DNA from: Phycisphaerales bacterium
GTDB lineage: Bacteria > Planctomycetota > Phycisphaerae > Phycisphaerales > UBA1924
NCBI GenBank assembly: GCA_019744815.1
Contig: JAIEUA010000006.1
Location: 62,001-126,000, forward strand
Direction: 5' to 3'
DNA length: 64,000 nt
Position 1 is the first letter of the stretch, and every line of letters begins with the position of its first letter. Shown piece by piece: positions 1-60,124 of this stretch. The notes below the pieces were generated by a model that did no database searches, was not told where the DNA came from, and saw nothing but the letters and a program-made list of their open reading frames with translations. The position numbers were made by a program, and so were the translations under genes.

Positions 1-190
1 CCATCGGCAGGTCTTCCGGCTTCGGGTACAGCGCTCCCCGCCTTCCCGCCGGTCCGCTCTGGAGAAGAGCGTCGGCAGTGGCCGGGCCAGCGGTCGAGTT
101 CAGGCGAACCCGCTCGCAAGCCCCTGGAGAGCGCCAAGCCCGTCACGGCGGCGCGTCCGCGGTGGAATCGGCACAGGCCTAGGGCCTTTG
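1..190 (-). promoter_or_regulatory. Cobalamin (B12) riboswitch, 3' part, pointing out of the window
   Basis: On the minus strand the segment reads GCCACTG, then GGGAAGGC, then AGCCGGAAGACCTGCC. That is the conserved order of the 3' half of the cobalamin riboswitch, ending in the B12 box (consensus AGYCMGGAGACCTGCC, from memory). The 5' half, with the usual CCCGC-ACTGT core, is less clear to me, so the left/right limits are approximate. The element is preceded by a good promoter on the same strand. The regulated gene lies to the left, outside the window; by family habit it would be a cobalamin synthesis or transport gene or a B12-independent isozyme. Confidence 0.78.
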
Positions 191-257
191 CCTCACCACA
201 CTTCCCTTTTCAGCCCGAGCCGTGCAGAACACGGTGCGGGCACCGAGGGACAACGGC

Positions 258-285
258 AGCATAGCAAGTTCGATGCGGGTGTCAA
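258..285 (-). promoter_or_regulatory. Sigma70-type promoter for the B12 leader
   Basis: Read on the minus strand, TTGACA is followed after 16 bases by TATGCT. This is a near-consensus -35/-10 pair in an otherwise GC-rich background. Transcription would start near position 250 and run left through the cobalamin riboswitch, so the arrangement makes functional sense. The call rests only on the sequence match and the position. Confidence 0.65.
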
Positions 286-37082: not shown

Positions 37083-38972
37083 TCAGGGCTCCGCGGTGCG
37101 GGTCGTCGCCGAGCTCGAGCGGCGTGCCCGCGTGTGCGCCTCCAGCGCCTCGAACCACAGCGCCAGGTTCAGCATCGGCCAGGCCAGGTGCCACAGCCGC
37201 GACGGGCCGGCGCACACGGCTTCGATGATCTCGGGGTTGTAGATCGTCCGCAGCCGCTCGCTCTCCAGGGCCGAACGCCGCGCCGTGCCGATCCAGTTCT
37301 GGAACGGCAGCGGGAAGCTCGCCTTCTCGCGCTCCAGCACGTTGGTGCTGAGCTTGGACGCGAACGCCTCGCGGAGCACGACCTTGGTGTCCTGCACCCG
37401 GCGCTGTCCGTCGCTGCGGGCGACGAACTTGCGGTGCATCGGCAAGCGCTCGGCCAGGCCCGCGACCACGACGTCGGCGAAGGGCGTGCGGCCCTCGACG
37501 CCCTCGAGCATCGCCGCGGAATCCAGCCGCAGGAGCAACGACGCGAGGTTGTTGCGACGCTGGAAGATCAGATGTGGCTGCAGCGGGTCGTGATGCCCGA
37601 GCATGGACGCCGCCTCTTCGCACTTCGCAAACTCGCGGGCGAAGTCGGCCCGCAGCGTCTCGGCGTGGCCGACGCCCTCGAGGAACGCGGGCGTGAACGC
37701 TTCGCCGTAGGACTCGGGCGTGAGCCAGGCGTTGGCGAGCATCTCGAACTCGCCGGGGGTGAGGCTTTGGTGGCGAGCCTGGAGCGGGTGCGAGCCGTCG
37801 TGGAACTGGACCGCGCCGAGGAGCGCGAGGTCGTAGCCGCCGAAGAGCTCGTCGGCGCCCTCGCCGCTGAGGGTGACGATGCAGCCGCGGGCCCGCAGGG
37901 TGCGGGCGACCTCGTTGATCGCGACCTCGTTGGGCGTGCTGAGCGGGAGCAGGGTCTTGGAGATGATCTCCTGCCAGCGGGATTCGAACAGCTCTTGGGT
38001 CACCACCGCTTCGGTGTGGACGGTGCCAATCTTCTCGGCGACGTGGCGGGCGAAGGCGAAATCGTCTTGCCCCGGGGCCGAGGCGCCCTTGGCGCCGGCG
38101 GCGAAGGAGAGCAGCTCCTTGCCGGCGAGGGTCTCTTTCGCGATGGTGGCGATGATGGAGCTGTCGAGCCCGCCCGAGAGCAGCGTGCACAGGGGCACAT
38201 CGCTGCGGAGGTGCCGACGCACGCTTTCCTCGATGGCCGCTCCGACATCGGCGCTGACGCGGGCGGTGAAGGCGTCCCACAGCGATCGCCGCGTGATGCG
38301 CAGTTCGCCGGGCGCGAAGCGCACCCGCAGCACGGCGCCGGGCTCAAGCAGCTTCACGCCCTCGATCAGCGTCCGCTCGGCGAACGAGGTCCGCGAAGTG
38401 GTGAGGTAGGACACCACGCCGAGGGGATCGGGCGTCGGCTCGATCAACGGGTGCTGCAAGATGGCCGCCATCTCGCTGGCGAAGACCAGTTCGGGCGCTC
38501 CGTCGCGGGTGACCTCGGCCAGGTAGAGCGGCTTGATGCCCAACGGGTCCCGTGCCAGCCAAGCGACCCGTCGCTCCAGGTCCACGGCACACAGCGCAAA
38601 CATGCCCCGCAGCTTGTCGAACGCGTGCTCGCCGAAGACCCCGAACGCCGCGAGCACCGTCTCGGTGTCGCTCTGGGTGCGGAACTGGACGCCCATGCGG
38701 GTCAGCTCGGCCCGCAGCTCGGCGTCGTTGTACAGCTCGCCGTTGTAGACGATCGCGAAGCGGCCGTCGGACGAGACCATGGGTTGGCTCGCCTCGGCGG
38801 AGAGGTCCACGACCGCGAGGCGTCGGTGCCCGAGGACGCAGCCGGGGCGTTCCAGCAGCCCCTCGCCGTCGGGCCCGCGGTGGGCCATGCGGTCGCGCAT
38901 GGCGACCACGGCGTCCCGCCGCGACGGATCAGGTTGACGAGAGGACGACAGAATGCCCGCGATGCCGCACAT
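37083..38972 (-). CDS. asnB: Asparagine synthetase, glutamine-hydrolysing
   Basis: 629 residues from ATG 38972. The glutaminase N-terminus is MCGIAGILSS with Cys2 as nucleophile after Met removal, followed by HRGPDGEG and VYNGELYND. The synthetase domain has the PP-loop SGGLDSSIIATIAKE and the nucleotide motif SGEGADELFGGYD. It makes asparagine from aspartate, ATP and glutamine in the cytoplasm. Length is normal for AsnB. A short helical gene follows at 26 bases. In some surface-polysaccharide loci, AsnB homologs amidate sugars, but nothing here shows that. Confidence 0.95.
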   Translation of the reverse strand: MCGIAGILSSSRQPDPSRRDAVVAMRDRMAHRGPDGEGLLERPGCVLGHRRLAVVDLSAEASQPMVSSDGRFAIVYNGELYNDAELRAELTRMGVQFRTQSDTETVLAAFGVFGEHAFDKLRGMFALCAVDLERRVAWLARDPLGIKPLYLAEVTRDGAPELVFASEMAAILQHPLIEPTPDPLGVVSYLTTSRTSFAERTLIEGVKLLEPGAVLRVRFAPGELRITRRSLWDAFTARVSADVGAAIEESVRRHLRSDVPLCTLLSGGLDSSIIATIAKETLAGKELLSFAAGAKGASAPGQDDFAFARHVAEKIGTVHTEAVVTQELFESRWQEIISKTLLPLSTPNEVAINEVARTLRARGCIVTLSGEGADELFGGYDLALLGAVQFHDGSHPLQARHQSLTPGEFEMLANAWLTPESYGEAFTPAFLEGVGHAETLRADFAREFAKCEEAASMLGHHDPLQPHLIFQRRNNLASLLLRLDSAAMLEGVEGRTPFADVVVAGLAERLPMHRKFVARSDGQRRVQDTKVVLREAFASKLSTNVLEREKASFPLPFQNWIGTARRSALESERLRTIYNPEIIEAVCAGPSRLWHLAWPMLNLALWFEALEAHTRARRSSSATTRTAEP

Positions 38973-39083
38973 CGGAGCGAATATCGGCGGAATCGGGGGT
39001 GGGTCATCGAAGTCCGCGGGCCGTCTCTTCACACTCTGCGTCGAATGAGCCTGTGCACAGCGGGCGTAGGGACTCGGATGTCT

Positions 39084-40674: not shown

Positions 40675-40860
40675 CGTCGCGAACAGGCGGCTGGGCGACG
40701 ATCGCCACGCGTGATTGCCCAGCTTGCCACGCTCGAAACTTGGGCAAGGGGTAACCCCTGATCCGGCGTCTTGTTCGCCATTGAGCGCTCGGTCCCGCGT
40801 CCCGTCGCAGTCGTTCGGGGCTTCCGCCGATGCTGCGCCGACGCGCCGCCGCGTCGACTG

Positions 40861-42285
40861 ATGGAACGCCCCGCGTCCATCTCGATTCAGATCAGCCCCG
40901 ACTCTGCCGAGGCCGTGGCGACGTTTCCGATCGGGCCGGTCGACGCCGAGGCGGTCCGAGCCGCCGCCGCGAAGGCCGGCGTCGATCTCAACCCTGAAGT
41001 TCGCGCGACGATCGAGTCGCTTGCCGCCGCACACGCCACGGATGCACCGGCGTCGGCCGTGATCGCCCGGGCCACCCCGCCCCGCCACGGCGAGGACGGA
41101 CGCATCGAGTGGGCGGAGAACATGAATCCCCGTGCCGCTCGCGATGAAGGCGCCAAAACCGATCACTACACCGGCGCGCGCTACGTGCGAGTCGCTCTGG
41201 GCGCCACGATTGCCACGCTTGTTCCGCCCACCGAGGGCACGCCGGGCCGCGATGTGCGTGGCCAGACCATCTCGCCGACCCGCGGCAAGCCCGCGGTGCT
41301 GCGCGCCGGCGACGGCGTGATGCTCGGCACCGAATCGCGCCTGGTCGCCAAGCGCGCCGGGATTGTGATCCTGCAGGACGACGAGATCCGCGTCTCCGAC
41401 ACGCTCGAGATCAACGGCGGCGTGGACTTCGCCGTCGGACACATCGACTTCGAAGGACACGTCCACATCGCCAAGGGCATCGGGCCGGGGTTCCGCGTCC
41501 GCGCCCGCGGCGACATCCGCGTCGGCGATCTGGTCGAGCCCTGCGACATTCTCTGCGGCGGATCGCTGGATTGCCGAAGCGGTATCGCCGGCCACGGCCG
41601 CGGCACGATCTCGGTCGCGCGGTCGGCACGGGTCGGACACATGGAACAGGTCAAGGGTGTCGTCCGCGAAGACCTGATCGTCGATCGCGAGATCATCGAC
41701 TGCAATCTCATCGTCGGACGCGATCTGAACAGCCCCAGCGCCACCGTGCTCGGCGGCTCGATCGAGGTCACCGGCTCGGTGCGCATCGCCACACTCGGAT
41801 CGGAACGCTCACCGGTGACCGTCCTGTGCGTCGGCGACGCGCCGCTGCTCCGCGGGGCGCGGCTCGAAGCCAAGAACGCGGTCGTGAAGTTCCAGACCCA
41901 GCTCGACACGCTGACCGAGCAGCGACGCATGATCCAGCTCAACCCCAAGCCCTCCGCGGCCGATCGCGAGCGGATGTGCGAACTCGAGTACGAACTCAAC
42001 GCGGCGGAAAAGGGACACGCCGAGGCATCGGCGCGTCTCGCCGACCTCGACGCCCGCTTCAACGCTCAAGCGAAGGTCGACATCCACATCGGCAAGATGA
42101 TCCATCCCGGCGTTCGCATCAAGATCGGCGACCGCACGGCGAGCTTCACCAAGCCCGTCCGCGGGCCGCTCGCGATCTGTTGGAACGAGCAGCACCAGCT
42201 GGTGATTGTGCCCTCGGGCGGCACGCCGCAGGAGCTGTCGCGGGTCGCGCGGGTCGAGCGCTTCGCGCCCGCCGCGGCGGCGTGA
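40861..42285 (+). CDS. FapA/DUF342-family protein
   Basis: 474 residues from ATG 40861. It carries the FapA-type beta-helix core seen as VRVALGATIATLVPPTEGTPGRDVRG and repeated GDIRVGD/GSIEVTG blocks, then an alpha-helical coiled-coil (FQTQLDTLTEQRRMIQL...ELEYELNAAEKGHAE) and a final beta part ending KIGDRTASFTKP. DUF342 proteins are cytoplasmic, often linked to flagellar, polar or kinase regulation; the exact role is not known. The gene follows the CBS gene at about 190 bases and is convergent with the next. Confidence 0.85.
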   Translation: MERPASISIQISPDSAEAVATFPIGPVDAEAVRAAAAKAGVDLNPEVRATIESLAAAHATDAPASAVIARATPPRHGEDGRIEWAENMNPRAARDEGAKTDHYTGARYVRVALGATIATLVPPTEGTPGRDVRGQTISPTRGKPAVLRAGDGVMLGTESRLVAKRAGIVILQDDEIRVSDTLEINGGVDFAVGHIDFEGHVHIAKGIGPGFRVRARGDIRVGDLVEPCDILCGGSLDCRSGIAGHGRGTISVARSARVGHMEQVKGVVREDLIVDREIIDCNLIVGRDLNSPSATVLGGSIEVTGSVRIATLGSERSPVTVLCVGDAPLLRGARLEAKNAVVKFQTQLDTLTEQRRMIQLNPKPSAADRERMCELEYELNAAEKGHAEASARLADLDARFNAQAKVDIHIGKMIHPGVRIKIGDRTASFTKPVRGPLAICWNEQHQLVIVPSGGTPQELSRVARVERFAPAAAA

Positions 42286-43746: not shown

Positions 43747-44637
43747 TCACGCCGGCTTGGAGCCCGACGCAAGTCCAAGTCTCACCATGACTTGCTGCAG
43801 GTCCGACCACACCTTCGCCCGGTTCTCGGGCGTGTAGTCCCGCAGCAGATACGCCGGGTGATACGTCGGCATCACCGCCACCTCGACACTTGCATGATCT
43901 TGCCCGAGTGCGTCTTCGACGGAACCGTGCAGCACGCCCTCGGCCCCGTCGAACCGTGCGGGGGTGAACTTCCCCCGCAGCCGCCCCATCGACTCCTCGC
44001 TCCGCAGGATCGTCCGCGACGCGGGCAGACCCAGGGTCACGATCACCTCGGGTTTGATGATCCGCACTTGATCGATCAAGTACGGCCTGCACAGCTCCGC
44101 CTCGCGGCTGGTCGGCGTCGCGTTGCCGGGCGGGCGGGTCTTGAGCACGTTGCAGATGTACACCTGCTCGCGCGACAGGCCCATCGCCACGATCATCTTC
44201 TCGAGCAGTTGTCCGGCCTTGCCCACGAACGGTCGACCGGTGCGGTCCTCGTCGGCGCCCGGCGCTTCGCCGATGAAGACCAGCCGCGCGCACGGATCAC
44301 CCTCGCCAAAGACGATCGAGTGATGATCGGTGACAAAGTGCTGGTGCGGCGCATCCGCCTCGTAGCGTTCACGCAGGGCGTCGAGCATGCGCTGCGACGC
44401 TTCGCGGTCGCGGCCGCCGGTCGCGGGTGTCAGAGCCGCGGCTTCACGGGGCACCGCGGCCTGCTTGCTCGCGGGCACTACCGTGGTCACGATCGGCGGC
44501 TCACGGTCGAGCGTCGAGGGCGAGCTCCCGCCCGCGGGGCCGCCTGTTCCGCGCTTGCGGATCGGCACAACATCCACGCCGAACATCGAAGCAGTTCGAG
44601 CGCTCACCGCGGCGTAGCGACGGGTCAGTTCGTCCAT
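43747..44637 (-). CDS. Family 4-like uracil-DNA glycosylase lacking three cluster cysteines
   Basis: 296 residues from ATG 44637. Motif A is IGEAPGADEDRTGRPFVG and the terminal motif is PTYHPAYLLRD; these are the uracil-binding and catalytic loops of families 4/5. Family 4 enzymes hold an iron-sulphur cluster with C-x2-C near the N-terminus and K-C-RPP plus C-P later. Here the C-x2-C is replaced by TDHHSIVFGEG and KCRPP by KTRPP; only ELCRPY survives, so the cluster is probably lost. It removes uracil from DNA in base-excision repair. The upstream gene is 54 bases away on the same strand, so it may be the second gene of an operon. Confidence 0.87.
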   Translation of the reverse strand: MDELTRRYAAVSARTASMFGVDVVPIRKRGTGGPAGGSSPSTLDREPPIVTTVVPASKQAAVPREAAALTPATGGRDREASQRMLDALRERYEADAPHQHFVTDHHSIVFGEGDPCARLVFIGEAPGADEDRTGRPFVGKAGQLLEKMIVAMGLSREQVYICNVLKTRPPGNATPTSREAELCRPYLIDQVRIIKPEVIVTLGLPASRTILRSEESMGRLRGKFTPARFDGAEGVLHGSVEDALGQDHASVEVAVMPTYHPAYLLRDYTPENRAKVWSDLQQVMVRLGLASGSKPA

Positions 44638-44691
44638 TCCAAACGGTACGCCCGGGCTCCGTCCTGGCGGACGCATCGACGCCCCGGCCGG

Positions 44692-45831
44692 CTACGGCTG
44701 CGGCGATTTCTTCACAACCCGTCCATCCGGGCTGACCGCTTGGTCGGCCTCGGGATCGACAGGGATCGGCTCGCCCGGGGCGGCGGCGGGGGCGCTGGGG
44801 GCCGAGCCGCTGCCGGGGTAGATCACGCCGTAGATCACATCGCGGGCCGTGGTGTCGTAGAAGTTCTGCCACGCCGCCAGCTCGGTGTCGTCGTAGAAGA
44901 AGTCCCAGATCACCAATCCCGCGGCACCGACCTGGCGCGGGATCTCCAGACCCTGGCGCAGGTTGATCGAGTTGATGAACTGGTTCGCGAAGCGGCCCGC
45001 CGAGGGGTGGTACTTGAGCAGGAAGAAGGGGTACACAGGCTTGCCGCGGCTGAAGCGGACGGATTCGCCGACCATCCCGAGGATGTACGCCTCGTTGCCC
45101 GAGGGCTCGACCTGATTCTGCCCGGCGGGCACCGCGACCGAGTAGACCGGGTAGATCGACGGGCAGAGCACGTCGACCAGGTCGAAGTACCACTTCATCT
45201 CGACCTCGTGGATCTCGCGGTAGCGGGCGAGGTCGACACCATACTGCGGCACGCCGTTGAAGATCCAGTACGACCGCAGCGGGATGCCGTACCAGCTCAG
45301 CTTGGCCTTGGGGCGCTGCTGGCGGACGATGTTGGCGGTGAACTCGTAGTACTGGCGGACGGTCTTCTTGTACTCGGCCTGGATGATCGAGTCCCACTCG
45401 GTGTCGGGCTTGCCGGCGAGCAGGTCGGGCCTCTGGGTCTTGATGTACGTCGTCCACGCAGGCTGGACGCTGTCGCTCCACTCCCACGAAGGCCACCACG
45501 ACTCGTGATCGATGCAGATGATGCCGCTGAAGTTGACGTCGGGGATGGTCTCGTTGAGGTCCTTGATCAGCTCGGCCTGATGGCGTGGGTAGAAGGACGG
45601 ATCCCCCGCGATCATGTGAGGGCCCTCGTGCGGATGCAGGCCGATCGTCCCGCCGGAGACGTCGTTGACCAGCGGCACGCCCCGGTACTGAATGAGGTTG
45701 GCGTTGCGGCTCTGGATGGCGAGACGCACGTCATACGACGCGCCAGGTCCGGCGAGCGCAACCGAGGCCAGCGTGCCGGCAAAAAGCCCGGCGAGCGCGA
45801 CAAAGCGATGCGAACTGCGTGAGATCGACAT
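44692..45831 (-). CDS. Secreted GH56-like (hyaluronidase-type) protein
   Basis: 379 residues from ATG 45831, signal peptide FVALAGLFAGTLASVALAG. The sequence FSGIICIDHESWWPSWEW matches the hyaluronidase catalytic strand FSGLAVIDWEAWRPRW (the Asp and Glu dyad, here Asp108 and Glu110). Later segments RPKAKLSWYGIP, LCPSIYP and GAAGLVIWDFF match RPRGLWGFYGFP, LYPSIY and GAAGVVLWVSW. All occur in order with similar spacing. Family GH56 cleaves hyaluronan or chondroitin and is mostly eukaryotic. The EGF tail is missing; the C-terminus is Ala/Pro-rich. A glycan-degrading extracellular enzyme is likely; the substrate is inference. Confidence 0.82.
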   Translation of the reverse strand: MSISRSSHRFVALAGLFAGTLASVALAGPGASYDVRLAIQSRNANLIQYRGVPLVNDVSGGTIGLHPHEGPHMIAGDPSFYPRHQAELIKDLNETIPDVNFSGIICIDHESWWPSWEWSDSVQPAWTTYIKTQRPDLLAGKPDTEWDSIIQAEYKKTVRQYYEFTANIVRQQRPKAKLSWYGIPLRSYWIFNGVPQYGVDLARYREIHEVEMKWYFDLVDVLCPSIYPVYSVAVPAGQNQVEPSGNEAYILGMVGESVRFSRGKPVYPFFLLKYHPSAGRFANQFINSINLRQGLEIPRQVGAAGLVIWDFFYDDTELAAWQNFYDTTARDVIYGVIYPGSGSAPSAPAAAPGEPIPVDPEADQAVSPDGRVVKKSPQP

Positions 45832-46138: not shown

Positions 46139-47329
46139 ATGACCATGGAACCCGATCATCCGCCGCACATCCTGATCAACGCGCTGTCGGTGAGCAGCGG
46201 CGGGGGGTTCACGGTCGCGCGGGAGGTGCTTCACGGCCTCGCGACGCGGCGGCCGGCGTGGACCTTCACGCTGGCGATGACCGGAGGCAGCGCGTTCCAC
46301 GAGCCGATGCGGCGCGAATCGTTCCCTGCCAACGTGCGGTTCCTCTGGGCACCGGAAGGTACCGGTCGCTTGCGCTCGCGGCTCGTGTTTGAGAACTTCA
46401 CGCTGGTGGATTGGTGCCGCGAGCAAAAGGTGAGCGCGGTGGTGCAGCTCAACGGCCAGAAGCCCCCGCGGCTGAACCTGCCGATGATCGCGCACTGCCA
46501 GGACCCGGTGCCGTACTTGCCCCATGTGTGGGGGCGGGGCCTTCCAGGCCCCGCGCCCCTGCGCGCACGCCTCGGTGCCGCCATGAGACGCCGCGCCATC
46601 AGGCACTCTCTCAAGCACGCCGCGTGCGTCGGCTTCACCAGCGGCTACTTGCGTGATCTCATTCTGGGTTGGGAAAAGGTCAAACCCGCGCGGGCCGAGG
46701 TCTTCTACAACGCCGTGCCCGATGCGTGGGCGTCGCGCGATGCGGCGGCGATGACGTCGCTGGCGTCGCGGCCGATGGAAGTGCTGACAGTGAGCGACGT
46801 CACGCCCCACAAGCGGCAGCATCTGGTCGCGCGGGCGGTGTGCGCCCTGCGCCAGGAGCGCGGGCTGGAGTCGCTGACGTATCGCGCTGTCGGCCGGGTG
46901 TTTGACGAGCGCTACGCGGAGTCGCTGAGGCAGATCGCCCGCGATGCGGGCACTCCCGATGCGGTGAGGATCGAGGGGCGACTCGCCGGCGACGCGGTCG
47001 AAGCGGCGTTCCAGCGGGCGCGGTGCTTCGCGTTCATGAGCGTGTGCGAGAGCTTCGGGATTCCGCCCTTGGAGGCGCTGAGCTTTGGCGCACCCGTCGT
47101 CTCGAGCCGCTGCTGCGCGATGCCGGAGGTGCTGGGCGACGCCGCGGCGTTCGTGGAGCCCGACGATGAGGCGGGCCTGATCGCGACACTGCGGCGGGTG
47201 TTGACGGACGCGCCGCACTCGGAGGAGCTGCGCCGCCGCGGGTTTGAGCGGTGTCTGCGGTTCCGCTGGGGCGAGACGTGCGCGAAGATGGTGACGAGTC
47301 TGGAAGAGATGGTTTCGCGTGGTCGATAA
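46139..47329 (+). CDS. Glycosyltransferase family 4 with internal repeat-derived segment
   Basis: 396 residues. The GT-B start HILINALSVSSGGGFTVAREV and the C-terminal motif FMSVCESFGIPPLEALSFGAPVVSS, whose E-x7-E pair binds the nucleotide sugar, define the family. It transfers a sugar to an acceptor in surface-glycan assembly. Residues about 131-142 (WGRGLPGPAPLR) are encoded by the palindrome GCGGGGCCTTCCAGGCCCCGC that also occurs between genes elsewhere in this window. An epimerase/dehydratase gene follows at 47364, so the two form an operon. No clear Shine-Dalgarno precedes ATG 46139. Confidence 0.88.
   Translation: MTMEPDHPPHILINALSVSSGGGFTVAREVLHGLATRRPAWTFTLAMTGGSAFHEPMRRESFPANVRFLWAPEGTGRLRSRLVFENFTLVDWCREQKVSAVVQLNGQKPPRLNLPMIAHCQDPVPYLPHVWGRGLPGPAPLRARLGAAMRRRAIRHSLKHAACVGFTSGYLRDLILGWEKVKPARAEVFYNAVPDAWASRDAAAMTSLASRPMEVLTVSDVTPHKRQHLVARAVCALRQERGLESLTYRAVGRVFDERYAESLRQIARDAGTPDAVRIEGRLAGDAVEAAFQRARCFAFMSVCESFGIPPLEALSFGAPVVSSRCCAMPEVLGDAAAFVEPDDEAGLIATLRRVLTDAPHSEELRRRGFERCLRFRWGETCAKMVTSLEEMVSRGR
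46534..46554. repeat. Short palindrome inside the glycosyltransferase gene
   Basis: GCGGGGCCTTCCAGGCCCCGC, an 8-base stem with a 5-base loop. Close relatives lie between genes at 43404-43425 (imperfect) and 50741-50757. Its position in a coding frame is unusual. Confidence 0.8.
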
Positions 47330-47363
47330 CTCTGTTCCCTCCCGCATCACACCCACAACACCT

Positions 47364-48389
47364 ATGCCCCACTTCATCCCCACACAGTTCCCGCAGGTTG
47401 CCTCGAAGCTGAAGGGCCGCGTCGCGGTCATCACCGGCGGCTGCGGCTTCATCGGCTCGCACTTGGCCCACGCCCTCGCCGCCAGCGGCGCGACGGTGCG
47501 GGTGCTCGACGACCTCTCCGGCGGATTTGAGTCAAACCTCGCGCCCGCGCGGGACGCCGCCAAAGCCAGCGGCGGAAGCGTGGAGTTCATCAAGGCTTCG
47601 ATTCTCGACGACGCCGCGCTGCGAAAGGCGATCTCGGGGAGCGACTTCATCTTCCATCAAGCCGCGCTCGTGAGCGTGCCGGAATCCGTCGAGAAGCCGG
47701 AGAAGTGCCTCAGCGTGAACGTCGAAGGCACACAGCGCGTGCTGCTCGCGGCCAAGGACCTGAAAGCCCAAGAGAAGAAGGAAAAGCGGGTGATGTTCGC
47801 CGCCAGTGCCGCGGCATACGGCAACACGCCCAGCCTGCCCAGCAAGGAGACCGACAACCCGGATGTCTGGTCGCCCTACGCGATGAGCAAAGTCAGCGGC
47901 GAGCTCCTGCTCCGCACCTTCGCCCGCTGCTTCGGCCTCTCGTGCATCAGCCTGCGCTACTTCAACATCTTCGGCCCGCGCCAAGACCCCAAGAGCCCGT
48001 ACGCCGCGGTGATCAGCGCGTTCGCGGACACCCTGAGCGCCGGCAAACAGCCCCGCGTCCTGGGCGACGGCGAACAGACCCGCGACTTCACCTACATCGA
48101 TAACGTGGTGCTGGCCAACATGCTGGCGGCGACGAGCGAGAAGCCCCTCTCGGGCGAGGTCGTCAACATCGGCACCGGTGCTCGCATCCGGCTGCTGGAC
48201 GTCCTGAAGCACATGGGCGAGTCGCTGAAAGTGGACTCGACGCCGACGTTCGGCCCGCCCCGGGCGGGCGATGTGCGGCACTCCTCGGCGGACATCTCCG
48301 CGGCCCGTTCGCTCCTCGGCTATGAGCCGGTGGTGGACTTCGGCGAGGGGATTCGGCGAACGCTGGAGTGGGCGCGGGTAAACAAGTAG
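47364..48389 (+). CDS. NAD-dependent epimerase/dehydratase (UDP-sugar type)
   Basis: 341 residues of the extended short-chain dehydrogenase family. Nucleotide-binding ITGGCGFIGSHLAHALAASGA, catalytic SAAAYGN and YAMSKVSGE (Tyr-x3-Lys) and C-terminal GEVVNIGTGARIRLLDVL are typical of UDP-glucose 4-epimerase and related enzymes. It would convert a nucleotide sugar for polysaccharide synthesis, consistent with the glycosyltransferase just upstream. A GTG at 47319 would overlap the upstream stop codon; the ATG at 47364 is preferred because the overlapping part (VDNSVPSRITPTTP) is not conserved-looking. Confidence 0.9.
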   Translation: MPHFIPTQFPQVASKLKGRVAVITGGCGFIGSHLAHALAASGATVRVLDDLSGGFESNLAPARDAAKASGGSVEFIKASILDDAALRKAISGSDFIFHQAALVSVPESVEKPEKCLSVNVEGTQRVLLAAKDLKAQEKKEKRVMFAASAAAYGNTPSLPSKETDNPDVWSPYAMSKVSGELLLRTFARCFGLSCISLRYFNIFGPRQDPKSPYAAVISAFADTLSAGKQPRVLGDGEQTRDFTYIDNVVLANMLAATSEKPLSGEVVNIGTGARIRLLDVLKHMGESLKVDSTPTFGPPRAGDVRHSSADISAARSLLGYEPVVDFGEGIRRTLEWARVNK

Positions 48390-54514: not shown

Positions 54515-54874
54515 TCACTTCGGTGCGTCGGGCTTGGACGGCGCCGGGGCCTTGATCGCCTCCGCCGCCTTCTCGCCTTCCTTCTTTACCTCTTCGACGC
54601 CCTTCTCCACCGCCTTCTTGGTCTCTTCGACCGCCTTCTCGGCGTTCTCCTTCACCGCTTCGGTGGCTTGCTCCACCGGCGCCGGTTGGGCCGGGAACTT
54701 CGCCGCCTCGGCCTTCGAGCGCTCGATCTGGGCCGCCGGACCGCTGCTCTCGGCGATGATCGGAGCCAGGAACGCGCCGCCCACCGCGCCGACCACCAGC
54801 CCGATGATCAGACCCGGAAGAAACGCCTTGGCAAAGCCGCCGTTGGCGGCCGGTGAGTTGGTGGATTCGGACAT
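54515..54874 (-). CDS. Single-pass membrane protein with Lys/Glu/Ala helical tail
   Basis: 119 residues with GGGAGG before the ATG. One transmembrane helix FLPGLIIGLVVGAVGGAFLAPII is followed by an alternating Lys/Glu-rich helix (EKAVEETKKAVEKGVEEVKKEGEKAAEAIK) that resembles late-embryogenesis or apolipoprotein-like repeats. The end is Pro/Lys-rich. It is likely a membrane-anchored spacer or stabilising protein; I do not recognise a defined family. It is convergent with the PEP-CTERM pair. Confidence 0.72.
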   Translation of the reverse strand: MSESTNSPAANGGFAKAFLPGLIIGLVVGAVGGAFLAPIIAESSGPAAQIERSKAEAAKFPAQPAPVEQATEAVKENAEKAVEETKKAVEKGVEEVKKEGEKAAEAIKAPAPSKPDAPK

Positions 54875-54988
54875 GGCAAACCTCCCAGCAAGCCGGTGCA
54901 TCCGGCGCGACGGCGGGGGACCCCGCAGGAACCAGCATACCCGCTACCGGCCGCGGCACGAGCCCGCACACGACCGTTCGGACGAGGA

Positions 54989-55195
54989 TCATCGGAATCG
55001 CCGCATCCGATGCATCCAAATTCCGTACGAAATCACGCTTTTCACCAGCTCCCAGCGGCTGGATGGGTACCCCTTCCCGAACGCCGTGTGAAGACGCCAC
55101 TGCCAGTAGGGCCCCCGGAAGCGAAACCGCGAGATCACCCCCAGCCGCAGAAGCTGGTAGAGCCCTCCGAGGATGTCCAGTGGTGAGTGGGTCAC
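54989..55195 (-). CDS. Small conserved-looking protein, basic and aromatic
   Basis: 68 residues from GTG 55195. The run LLRLGVISRFRFRGPYWQWRLHTAFG followed by YGIWMHRMRR is strongly basic and rich in Arg, Trp and Tyr, and it resembles short proteins I associate with planctomycete genomes. It lies opposite the long leader ahead of the propeller gene. It is too short for domain assignment and no Shine-Dalgarno is clear. Confidence 0.55.
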   Translation of the reverse strand: MTHSPLDILGGLYQLLRLGVISRFRFRGPYWQWRLHTAFGKGYPSSRWELVKSVISYGIWMHRMRRFR

Positions 55196-55331
55196 GCCGC
55201 GTGAGTATTGGAGGGCATCCGGGCGTTCAGGCAGGGCGGCGTTGCCATGGGTCCGATCGTCTGGCGGTCCTCGTGGCCTTGGGCGCGACCACGCTGTCGA
55301 TCGATGAAGGGTTGATTGCGGCGAACAAGCC

Positions 55332-55360
55332 TTGTGTCATCCCGCCTTATCTGGGACAAT
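55332..55360 (+). promoter_or_regulatory. Possible promoter for the propeller protein
   Basis: TTGTGT and GACAAT are separated by 17 bases, ending 24 bases before the ATG at 55384. The -35 is weak but the spacing is ideal and the leader would contain the Shine-Dalgarno GGAGG. Confidence 0.4.
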
Positions 55361-55383
55361 GGCCCAAAGTCCCGGAGGTTGAG

Positions 55384-58300
55384 ATGCGTTGTTGGATGAG
55401 ACTGGTCACCGCGATCGTGGCGGCTATGGCTCCGTGCCTCGCGCTCGCGCAGCGTTCGACACCGCTCCGAATTCCCAACCCGGACGTTCTGGCGAGCGAT
55501 CTGTTCGGGGTCTCGGTCGCGATCGACGGCGACACCCTGGTCGTCGGTGTGCCCTTTGACAACGTCGGGTCCAATGTCGATCAGGGCTCGGCCAATGTGT
55601 ATCGCTGGACGGGAACCGACTGGACACGGGAGGCCACGCTGATTGCCCCCGACAGTGCGGCGAACGATTTCTTCGGGTTCTCCGTCGCGATCACCGGCGA
55701 CACGGTGATCATCGGTGCGTACGGCGACGACGTAGGCGTCAACGCCGACCAAGGCTCGGTGTATCTCTTTACCCGTGCTGGATCGAGCTGGACCCAACAG
55801 GCCAAGCTCATCGCCTCGGATGGGGCATCAGGTGATCGTCTCGGCTACGCCGTCGCGATCTCCGGCGACACCGTGATCATGGGTGCTTCCGGCGACGACA
55901 TCGGAGTGAAGGCCAACCAGGGCTCGGCGTACGTCTTCGCCCGCGCTGGATCGAGCTGGACCCAGCAGGCCAAGCTCACCGCTGCGGATGGCGCGGCCGA
56001 TGACAACCTCGGTCAGTCCGTCGCCATCTCTGGTGATACAGCGATTGTCGGCGCGGGCCTTGATGACGCCGGCGCGAACGTCGACCAGGGTTCGGCGTAC
56101 GTCTTTGTTCGCGTTGGCCCGACATGGACGCAACAGGCCAAGCTCGCGGCGAATGACGGCGCCGCCGGCGACGCCTTTGGCTCCGCCGTCGCGCTCACGG
56201 GTGACACGGCCGTGATAGGCGCCGCCACCGACGACGCGGGCGCCAACGTCGATCAAGGCTCGGCGTACGTGTTTGTTCGCGCGGGCTCAAGCTGGTCGCA
56301 GCAGGCCAAACTATCCGCCGCGGACGGCGCTGCCGGGGACGGCTTTGGTCTTTCGGTGGCGATCTCCGGTGACACGGCGATCGTCGGCGCGAACCTCGAT
56401 GACATCGGTATCAGCGTCGATCAGGGTTCCGCGTACGTGTTCATCCGCTCAGGCACAACCTGGGTCCAGCAGTCCAAGCTCGCCACCGCTCTCGACGGCC
56501 GCGCGGGAGACCGCTTCGGCTCGTCCGTCGCGATCTCGGGCGATACCGCGATCATCGGCGCGCCGAATCAAGATTTGGGGTTCTTGACCCCCGATCAAGG
56601 TGCGGCGTGGGTCTTCTCCCGCATCGGCTCCACGTGGATCGGCCCCGATCTGCAGCTGCTGGCATCCGGCGGCGCGGCGAGCGACAACTTCGGCTTCTCC
56701 GTTGCGCTCTCGGGCGACACGGCGCTGGTGGGGGCGTCCGGCGACGACGTCGGGGCCAACATCGACCAGGGCTCGGTGTACGTCTTCACGCGCTCGGGCA
56801 CCACGTGGACCCAGCAGGCTCAGTTGACCGCCACGGGCGGCGCGGCGGGCGACAGCTTCGGCATCTCCGTCGCGCTCTCGGGCGACACAGCGCTGGTGGG
56901 GGCGAATGCCGACGACGTCGGAGCCAACGCCAACCAAGGCTCGGCGTACATCTTCACCCGCTCGGGCAGCACGTGGACCCAGCAGGCTCAGTTGACGGCG
57001 TCCGGCGGCGCGGCCAACGACCTCTTCGGCGTTTCCGTCGCGCTTTCGGGCGACACGGCGCTGGTGGGGGCGTACGGCGACGACATCGGCGCCAACACCA
57101 ACCAAGGCTCGGCGTACATCTTCACCCGCTCGGGCAGCACGTGGATCCAGCAGGCTCAGTTGACGGCGACCGGCGGCGCGGCCAACGACCTCTTCGGCGT
57201 TTTCGTCGCGCTCTCGGGCGACACAGCGCTGGTGGGGGCGTCTGCCGACGACGTCGGTGCCAACACCGACCAGGGCTCGGCATATATCTTCACCCGCTCG
57301 GGCATCACGTGGACCCAGCAGGCTCAGTTGACCGCCACGGGCGGCTCGGCGGGCGACCAGTTCGGCTACTCCGTCGCGCTCTCGGGCGACACGGCGCTGG
57401 TGGGGGCGAACCTCGACGACGTCGGGGCCAACCTCGACCAAGGCTCGGCGTACGTGTTCACCCGCTCGGGCACAACTTGGACCCAGCAGGCCCAGTTGAC
57501 CGCCACAAGCGGCGCGGCGTTCGACTACTTCGGCATCACCGTCGCGCTCTCGGGCGACACGGCGCTGGTGGGGGCGAACCTCGACAACGTCGGGGCCAAC
57601 ACCGACCAGGGCTCGGCGTGGACCTTCGATGTGCCCGCCGATGACTTCTCGCTGGCCCACAACGATGTCACTGACGTGTCGTACCCCACACTTTCTGCGG
57701 CACTGCTTCCCGCCACCAGCGGCCAGCAGATCACCGCGACCGAGGCCGCTTGGCGTCAGACCGGAAGTCTGAACACCTTCGGGCGTTCGATCGGACTCTT
57801 CAGTTCCGCCGATCTCCGCACGCCTTCCACCGCGGTGCTCGACCTCAGCGGCTCATCCGCTCTCGCCGCCGCGACCGGCTCGTCGGTCGATGTCTTTGGA
57901 CAGTTGCGGGTTGGGGCCGGTGCCTCGGTGGACGTGACCGGTACGACCTTCCGCCTCGGCTCGCGCGGCATACTGACCGCCCGTGCCGGCTCCTCGCTGA
58001 CGATCAACGCTCTCGCTGCCGCCCTCGACGGTCAAACCCGCCTCGAGCAGAACGCGTCGATCACTTTCTCCGGTGACGTCACCGCGAACGGGCCCACCAC
58101 GGCCAATCTCAACACCTCTCTGACGATGGGTGGCAGGTTCAGCAACTTCGACATATTCACCATCAACACCGGCACGATCTCCACGCCGCTCTTCTCAAAT
58201 CGAGTCCAGACCAACATCCTCGGTGACTGCGCGTTCTTCGGCTCATACACCAACGAGTACGGTGCCACCACCTCGATCCGCTCCGGAACCCTCTTGGTCT

Positions 58301-59037
58301 TCGGGACTCTCACCAACAGCGGCACGATCGTGGGTGCGGCGTGCACCGGCTGCCTGTCTGTCCCGCCGAATCTGGATATCGGTGGCGACCTCACTCTTGG
58401 TGCCCCCGCCAACCTCAATATGCCCTTTGTCGGATCTCAAGTACACGTCGGGGGTGACTTCGACAACTCGATCAACGCCAACACCCGCTATGACCTGAGC
58501 CTGGCGACGCTGCAGTTGGAAGGCACCGGCTCGGAGCAGACGCTGGAGGTGATGTCGAGGGACATCGGTGCAAGTGCATCGGGCCTCGACCGCACCATTG
58601 CTGGTCACTACCCGATCGGCACGCTCCGCATCGGGCCGTCGCCGAGCACCGTGCGGCTGGTCGATGCGTACGACAACGACAACCTCGGCCAGGGCTCGTG
58701 CGAAGCGATCTACGTCGACACGCTGCAGATCGACGCGGGCTCGCGTCTGATCAATCCGGCGTGCCGCATCTACTACAAGACTCTCATCAGGAACGGCACC
58801 ATTGATGTGCCCGCCAACGTGATCCCGCTGACCGCACCCTGTCCTGCCGATCTGAACAACGACGGCCTCGTCGATGACGCGGACTTCTCGATCTTCGTGG
58901 TGGCCTACGACATCCTCGACTGCGCCGATCCGACAATGCCGCCATCCTGCCCGGCGGACCTGAACAGCGATGCGCTGGTGGACGACGCCGACTTCCAGAT
59001 CTTCGTGGTCGCCTACAACGCCGTGTTGTGTTCGTAA
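55384..59037 (+). CDS. Secreted 13-repeat FG-GAP/propeller protein with two dockerin units
   Basis: 1217 residues from ATG 55384 (GGAGG upstream). Signal peptide TAIVAAMAPCLALA. Thirteen tandem units of about 56 residues, each like D-x-FG-x-SVAxSGDTAxVGA-x2-DDxGxNxDQGSAYxFxRSGxTWxQQAxL, match the integrin-type FG-GAP family. Seven units form one seven-bladed propeller, so two propellers (7+6) or one super-repeat are possible. A beta-helix-like linker (LVFGTLTNSGTIVGAAC) follows and then two dockerins starting CPADLNNDGLVDDADFSIF and CPADLNSDALVDDADFQIF. Later repeats (units 8-13) are almost identical, which shows recent duplication. Extracellular binding is likely. Confidence 0.9.
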   Translation: MRCWMRLVTAIVAAMAPCLALAQRSTPLRIPNPDVLASDLFGVSVAIDGDTLVVGVPFDNVGSNVDQGSANVYRWTGTDWTREATLIAPDSAANDFFGFSVAITGDTVIIGAYGDDVGVNADQGSVYLFTRAGSSWTQQAKLIASDGASGDRLGYAVAISGDTVIMGASGDDIGVKANQGSAYVFARAGSSWTQQAKLTAADGAADDNLGQSVAISGDTAIVGAGLDDAGANVDQGSAYVFVRVGPTWTQQAKLAANDGAAGDAFGSAVALTGDTAVIGAATDDAGANVDQGSAYVFVRAGSSWSQQAKLSAADGAAGDGFGLSVAISGDTAIVGANLDDIGISVDQGSAYVFIRSGTTWVQQSKLATALDGRAGDRFGSSVAISGDTAIIGAPNQDLGFLTPDQGAAWVFSRIGSTWIGPDLQLLASGGAASDNFGFSVALSGDTALVGASGDDVGANIDQGSVYVFTRSGTTWTQQAQLTATGGAAGDSFGISVALSGDTALVGANADDVGANANQGSAYIFTRSGSTWTQQAQLTASGGAANDLFGVSVALSGDTALVGAYGDDIGANTNQGSAYIFTRSGSTWIQQAQLTATGGAANDLFGVFVALSGDTALVGASADDVGANTDQGSAYIFTRSGITWTQQAQLTATGGSAGDQFGYSVALSGDTALVGANLDDVGANLDQGSAYVFTRSGTTWTQQAQLTATSGAAFDYFGITVALSGDTALVGANLDNVGANTDQGSAWTFDVPADDFSLAHNDVTDVSYPTLSAALLPATSGQQITATEAAWRQTGSLNTFGRSIGLFSSADLRTPSTAVLDLSGSSALAAATGSSVDVFGQLRVGAGASVDVTGTTFRLGSRGILTARAGSSLTINALAAALDGQTRLEQNASITFSGDVTANGPTTANLNTSLTMGGRFSNFDIFTINTGTISTPLFSNRVQTNILGDCAFFGSYTNEYGATTSIRSGTLLVFGTLTNSGTIVGAACTGCLSVPPNLDIGGDLTLGAPANLNMPFVGSQVHVGGDFDNSINANTRYDLSLATLQLEGTGSEQTLEVMSRDIGASASGLDRTIAGHYPIGTLRIGPSPSTVRLVDAYDNDNLGQGSCEAIYVDTLQIDAGSRLINPACRIYYKTLIRNGTIDVPANVIPLTAPCPADLNNDGLVDDADFSIFVVAYDILDCADPTMPPSCPADLNSDALVDDADFQIFVVAYNAVLCS

Positions 59038-59086: not shown

Positions 59087-60124
59087 TCACCGGTTCGTCG
59101 ACTCGCTCGCCGCCTGTCGGTGCCACGCGATCAGATCCTGCAGCCCCGCTTCGAGCGTGTACCCGGGCTCGAAGCCCAGCAGCTCCTTGGCCTTGCTGAT
59201 GTCGGCCAGCGAGTGCTTCACGTCGGCCGGGCGACCGGGCTGCAGCTGCGGGTGGATCTGAGGCACGCCCGCGGCATTGGCCATGGCACGCGCCAGTTCC
59301 AGCATGGTCACGCTGGTACCCGTGCCGATGTTCACGACCTCGCCGCGGGGCGGAACCTTGACCGAGCCGGCGAGCAGGAACGCCATCACCGCATCGGCGA
59401 CATAGGTGAAGTCGCGGGTCTGAAGGCCGTCGCCGAAGATCACCGGGGCCTCGCCCCGCAGCAGCTTCTGGGCGAACGCGGCGATCACGCCGGAGTAGGG
59501 CGAGTTGCCGGGTTGGCGCGGGCCAAAGACGTTGAACAGCCGCAGCGCCAGCGTGCTCATGCCGTAGGTCTTGGAGTGCACGCTCAGCAGGCTCTCGGCC
59601 GAGAGCTTGCTGGCGGCGTAGGGCGAGACGGGCGCGGGCAACTGCGTCTCGACGCGGGGAAGGTGCGGGTCGTCGCCGTAGGGTGACGAGCTCGACGCCA
59701 GGATCACGCGTTCAACGCCGGCGCCGGAGAGCGACGTGGTCTTCTTCGCGGCCTGCAGCACCCGGAGCGTGCCCGTCGCGTTGACGCTGAAGGTCCGCTG
59801 CGGATCATCGACCGAGCGCTGCACGCTCCCGACGGCGGCCAGGTGGAAAACGGTCGCGGCGCCGCTAAAGGCGTCGGCGAGGGCTTCGTCATCAAGCACG
59901 CTGCCGCGCACGAAACGCACGCGATCGGGCTCGAGGTCGATCAACTCCGAGAGATGCTCCAACGTCGAGTTCGACAAGTCGTCCACGACGCGGACGGTGG
60001 AGCCGAGCGCCAGCAAGGCGTCGACCAGATGCCCGCCGATGAAGCCGGCGCCGCCGGTCACGCAAACAGTCCTTCCGTTGTAGAAGGGCCGGAGGCGATT
60101 GACCTTTTCTGCGGGAAGCTTCAT
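59087..60124 (-). CDS. NAD-dependent epimerase/dehydratase (second copy)
   Basis: 345 residues, close in form to the 47364 enzyme. VCVTGGAGFIGGHLVDALLALG binds NAD, LASSSSPYGDDPH is the Ser region, YAASKLSAESLL carries Tyr-x3-Lys, and GEVVNIGTGTSVTMLELARAM the C-terminal part. Typical UDP-glucose/dTDP-sugar epimerase or decarboxylase. The N-terminal MKLPAEKVNRLRPFYNGRT is an extension of about 16 residues. It stands alone between two dockerin proteins, so it is probably part of the same surface-glycan chemistry. Confidence 0.9.
   Translation of the reverse strand: MKLPAEKVNRLRPFYNGRTVCVTGGAGFIGGHLVDALLALGSTVRVVDDLSNSTLEHLSELIDLEPDRVRFVRGSVLDDEALADAFSGAATVFHLAAVGSVQRSVDDPQRTFSVNATGTLRVLQAAKKTTSLSGAGVERVILASSSSPYGDDPHLPRVETQLPAPVSPYAASKLSAESLLSVHSKTYGMSTLALRLFNVFGPRQPGNSPYSGVIAAFAQKLLRGEAPVIFGDGLQTRDFTYVADAVMAFLLAGSVKVPPRGEVVNIGTGTSVTMLELARAMANAAGVPQIHPQLQPGRPADVKHSLADISKAKELLGFEPGYTLEAGLQDLIAWHRQAASESTNR

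Follow-up and report, generated by a model that had tools for sequence, protein, structure and literature searches.

Glycoside hydrolase family 56 (GH56) is known mainly from animals (PMC11669647, PMC12254123). A 2024 microbial review lists PL8, PL16, GH16, GH84, PL29, GH88, PL17, PL33 and PL35 as hyaluronan-degrading families, and lists no microbial GH56 (PMC11669647). Among the microbial families, PL8, PL16, PL33, GH84 and GH16 act on hyaluronan or related polymers and differ from GH56. Two surveys of planctomycete carbohydrate enzymes make no mention of GH56 in the main text (PMC11131199, PMC11266412), and GH56 was stated to be absent from the Isosphaeraceae studied in PMC5352709.

Hydrolases are common in exopolysaccharide biosynthesis systems, where their roles are system-specific (PMC5933820). 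PslG, BcsZ, PgaB, AlgL and PssZ are secreted glycan-cleaving enzymes encoded in or beside polysaccharide-synthesis clusters (PMC5933820). The protein described below resembles them in this respect, as judged from gene order only, and differs from them in enzyme family. To our knowledge, none of these enzymes is a GH56 member.

Here, we describe a GH56 protein encoded within a 64,000-nucleotide stretch of Phycisphaerales DNA (the window). Like HYAL1, PH-20 and the bee and wasp venom hyaluronidases, the protein has the GH56 profile and fold, the Asp-x-Glu dyad and a Tyr/Tyr/Trp set. Unlike those enzymes, it is bacterial, shares only 21-25% identity with them and has neither an EGF-like domain nor the conserved disulfides. 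It also lacks the substrate-cleft residues Arg134 and Arg265 (HYAL1 numbering), and its gene lies beside genes for polysaccharide synthesis. The features of the window discussed here are:

37083..39032, minus strand: asparagine synthase (glutamine-hydrolysing) family gene, of a family that also occurs close to GH56 in a few relatives
43747..44676, minus strand: gene of the uracil-DNA glycosylase superfamily, located downstream of GH56 (PF03167, 8.3e-38)
44692..45831, minus strand: GH56 glycoside hydrolase, 379 aa (ORF call, Pfam, PDB sequence search, AlphaFold2, Foldseek)
45502..45510, minus strand: catalytic D108-H109-E110, corresponding to HYAL1 Asp129/Glu131 (homologue alignment)
46139..47329, plus strand: GT4 glycosyltransferase gene, transcribed divergently from GH56
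47319..48389, plus strand: NAD-dependent sugar-nucleotide epimerase/dehydratase
59087..60124, minus strand: second NAD-dependent epimerase/dehydratase, lying between the genome's two GH56 genes

The preliminary description of this DNA had placed an open reading frame at 44692-45831. We recovered it at exactly that position on the minus strand, with an ATG at 45831 and a stop codon at 44692-44694. The frame is free of introns and its GC3 of 0.87 is host-like. A gene of the same genus, 86% identical, is present in a Phycisphaerales metagenome-assembled genome, in agreement with the planctomycete origin proposed earlier. The protein consists of a signal peptide (residues ~1-27), a catalytic (beta/alpha) barrel (residues ~30-340) and a disordered tail. 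By eye, the N-terminus is a Sec signal peptide (MSISRSSHRFVALAGLFAGTLASVALA/GP), and the protein is probably secreted. The C-terminal tail is ~40 aa long, rich in Pro and Ala, and modelled with low confidence. An EGF-like tail is missing. Both the signal peptide and this absence had been noted before.

Four segments of the protein had been said to resemble human hyaluronidase. The resemblance is real homology rather than chance, because the Pfam score lies above the cut-off and the only relatives in the PDB by sequence are GH56 enzymes. PF01630 (GH56), whose curated cut-off is 23.2 bits, matched with 53.5 bits (E 2.4e-14), and the same match was recovered by searching the genome. The PDB sequence search returned HYAL1 (9.7e-11), the bee venom enzyme (9.1e-10) and wasp Ves v 2 (3.3e-9), with no other matches. 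For AlphaFold2, the input was an alignment of 58 bacterial homologues. The resulting model had a mean pLDDT of 89.3 and a pTM of 0.83, and low confidence was limited to the first 28 residues and the ~40 at the C-terminus. When this model was compared with the PDB using Foldseek, the top six matches were all GH56 structures (2pe4 at 4.6e-16, then 1fcq, 2j88, 2atm, 1fcu, and 9jub at 2.7e-12), with a TM-score by target of up to 0.76 (2j88). The first match outside the family was Cwp19, far behind at 7.8e-6, followed by GH164. A chance motif match is ruled out by the Pfam score and the two PDB searches. Assignment to another TIM-barrel family is likewise rejected, since the GH164 and GH20 matches in Foldseek are far weaker than those to GH56. 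By profile, fold and catalytic residues, the protein is a true GH56 enzyme, as first proposed.

The Asp-x-Glu dyad lies in the motif IDHESWWPSW, which spans residues 107-116. The preliminary description had matched this dyad to the human pattern, and D108 and E110 do align with Asp129 and Glu131 of HYAL1. Each of the 75 bacterial homologues has both residues, as do the four animal enzymes in the alignment. In the model they immediately follow the strand formed by residues 104-107. Their placement in the barrel active site is deduced from the alignment and this post-strand position. The Asp/Glu dyad, Tyr202, Tyr247 and Trp321 have been named as catalytic or substrate-positioning residues (PMC13080975). 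The equivalents of the last three are Y181, Y227 and W309, respectively. Among the 75 bacterial homologues, Tyr247 is kept in 73, Trp321 in 74 and Tyr202 in 63 (Phe or Trp otherwise).

Other positions have changed. Arg134, Arg265 and Tyr75 of HYAL1 are conserved across the four animal enzymes; in the window protein they correspond to W113, M253 and a gap. These changes bear on the substrate and not on membership of the GH56 family. The disulfide-forming cysteines of the GH56 catalytic domain are not kept; the only cysteines in the window protein, C106 and C223, are placed elsewhere. As read from the aligned residues, the chemistry is probably that of the animal enzymes and the substrate contacts are probably different.

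We examined the genes around GH56 in the window and in its genus. An orthologue of the divergent GT4 gene adjoins GH56 in all six of the other GH56-bearing genomes of the genus. Relatives of the epimerase at 47319..48389, with 59-63% identity, adjoin or lie close to GH56 in another genus. The genome carries a second GH56 gene (578 aa, with a long Gly/Pro-rich tail; L039:8114-9850, G000 C7:126113-127849). This begins 113 bases beyond the end of the window (window-equivalent 64113) and is followed by its own GT4 gene. The order GT4a, GH56a, GH56b, GT4b, seen in two genomes of the genus (G445 and G446), appears to be ancestral there; the contigs of two more (G441 and G442) end inside the block. 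In the genome studied here, the block is split between two sites on one contig, ~19 kb from each other. Wzy, Wzx and sulfotransferase genes were not detected next to GH56 in the genus.

A uracil-DNA glycosylase gene had been reported within 54 bases of GH56. It does follow GH56 on that strand, and the gap after the GH56 stop codon is 15 or 54 bases, depending on whether the gene starts at 44676 or 44637. There were no uracil-DNA glycosylase matches in the loci of relatives, so we dropped the idea of an operon linking the two; this neighbour is probably unrelated to GH56. Elsewhere in the window are a cobalamin riboswitch cut by the window edge (1-262, minus strand; Rfam RF00174, 47.3 bits) and a FapA-domain protein (40771-42285, plus strand; PF03961, 1e-39) adjoining a CBS-domain protein and a CusF-like protein. 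The window also encodes a 1394-aa protein with 13 FG-GAP repeats (54853-59037, plus strand); frames of this FG-GAP kind reappear at related loci.

Across the family, clustering of the genes around 60 GH56 loci identified GT4, GT2, NAD epimerase, sulfotransferase, Wzy_C, polysaccharide deacetylase and Wzx as recurrent neighbours. We then compared 53 GH56 loci with 40 control loci from the same genomes, using HMMs built from the test loci. GT4 was present at 37 of the 53 GH56 loci versus 2 of the 40 controls (Fisher p 5e-11; per-genus mean 0.57 versus 0.03), and a Wzy-type polymerase/ligase at 30 versus none (Fisher 4e-10; per-genus mean 0.55 versus 0.00), Fisher values that overstate independence because the GH56 loci are related to each other. 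Sulfotransferases were found at 14/53 and 1/40 loci, and epimerases at 18/53 and 2/40. Because the HMMs came from the test loci, the count was repeated with Pfam, using the two nearest genes on each side and about one locus per genus. The 89 proteins from GH56 loci included 10 epimerases, 9 GT4, 6 Wzy_C, 4 EEP and 2 sulfotransferases. None of these families turned up more than once among the 80 control proteins.

In many genera the Wzy gene directly adjoins GH56, and the two are usually transcribed divergently. Several divergent GH56 clades (g330, g305, g316 and others) sit outside polysaccharide clusters. Two loci (L053 and L054, from G372 and G549) have three GH56 paralogues in tandem; a Wzy-like gene comes next, and a sulfotransferase and Wzx lie on the opposite side. 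These are compact clusters that may encode synthesis of a sulfated exopolysaccharide. In ~6 genera a protein of the endonuclease/exonuclease/phosphatase fold adjoins the GH56 and Wzy genes (L056:7557-8684, L061:6990-8078, L066:11517-12746). At another locus, which lies outside polysaccharide clusters, the GH56 domain is part of a frame of 1830 aa that also has a right-handed beta-helix region (L083:4881-10370, minus strand). G533 has a long frame related to it.

GH56 is an old and diverse resident of one Phycisphaerales family, and is nearly absent from the remaining phylum sample. In an even sample of the phylum, GH56 was detected in 6 of 392 genomes, all from this family or one neighbouring family. 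The order yielded 58 positives among 400 genomes; two genomes from another of its families have three tandem copies each. Within the family itself, 52/163 genomes and 24/74 sampled genera were positive, many of the GH56-bearing contigs spanning several hundred kb, and in the genus the figure was 7/8 genomes. Outside the phylum, none of 14 control genomes was positive. No GH56 was found in plasmids and phages (tblastn with the best-scoring homologue) or in viral contigs (scan).

Horizontal acquisition had been suggested. In a recent form this is not upheld, given the depth of the family across sampled genera and the host-like GC3. That the gene came recently from an animal, or is eukaryotic contamination of the assembly, fits the mainly animal record of GH56; we regard it as extremely improbable. 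The spread through genus and family, often on large contigs, contradicts it, as do the intron-free frame, its GC3 and the low identity to the animal enzymes. In the tree, the four animal enzymes form a single clade (100/96). This clade joins a group of eight or nine bacterial proteins, drawn from five or six genera, with strong support of 98/96 (98/90 without long branches). Identity between this group and the animal enzymes reaches 34%, the level seen between HYAL1 and the bee enzyme. The animal sequences and this group lie within a far more diverse bacterial tree; as the tree has no root and four animal sequences, any ancient transfer between bacteria and animals could have run either way. 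GH56 might be bacterial at root, serving synthesis of a sulfated glycosaminoglycan-like exopolysaccharide in Phycisphaerales, with animal hyaluronidases descended by ancient transfer; we offer this as a speculative and rather doubtful scenario.

From the family, fold, catalytic residues and genomic association documented above, we infer activity, export, substrate and role. It is reasonably likely, in our view, that GH56 acts on the cell's own exopolysaccharide, a polymer containing N-acetylhexosamine and sometimes sulfated. The bacterial enzyme would be a secreted retaining endo-beta-N-acetylhexosaminidase using substrate-assisted catalysis. D108 would position and polarise the 2-acetamido group of the substrate. 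Attack of this group on C1 would give an oxazoline, and E110 would serve as acid/base. Such substrate-assisted chemistry implies that the polymer would contain N-acetylhexosamine. It is probably also sulfated in several genera and so would be glycosaminoglycan-like. The polymer would be made by the adjacent glycosyltransferases and epimerases and, in relatives, Wzy/Wzx-type proteins. GH56 could then cut it during or after export, in the periplasm or outside. The cut may control the length of the chains, remove misdirected polymer or free the product, as for PslG, BcsZ, PgaB and AlgL.

The preliminary description had offered use of host or algal glycosaminoglycans as one inference. A secreted hyaluronidase or chondroitinase for feeding on animal glycosaminoglycans or algal polysaccharides would suit the true GH56 fold, the complete catalytic set and the signal peptide, and the genome has one weak match to a GH20-type beta-hexosaminidase. 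We nevertheless think it unlikely. The neighbours of GH56 are biosynthetic and form no catabolic cluster, and the cleft residues equivalent to Arg134, Arg265 and Tyr75 are altered. In addition, neither GH88 nor PL8 was detected in the genome, although the same PL8 search was negative in every control genome and so had no positive control. The lyase absence is provisional because the genome is a draft, 91.8% complete.

The unusual cleft also suits an active GH56 directed at some other N-acetylhexosamine polymer, such as a cell-wall or glycoprotein glycan or a neighbour's capsule, with the proximity of glycosyltransferases being incidental. The divergent clades outside polysaccharide clusters would fit such activity. 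The strong association with polysaccharide synthesis genes in multiple genera, and the conserved GT4 flank in the genus, make this quite improbable. Loss of cleft residues might even signal a catalytically dead fold acting as a polysaccharide-binding scaffold. This is very hard to reconcile with the invariant dyad and the retained Tyr and Trp residues, because selection for binding alone would not demand them. Of the roles considered, we favour trimming of the cell's own exopolysaccharide.

GH56 has been treated as the family of animal and venom hyaluronidases. The proteins described here form a deep branch of the family in bacteria, with all of its catalytic residues and ties to polysaccharide synthesis. 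This branch is a new source of GH56 enzymes, probably with different specificity, and opens the question of where animal hyaluronidases came from to testing. It also suggests that some planctomycete exopolysaccharides may be similar to glycosaminoglycans.
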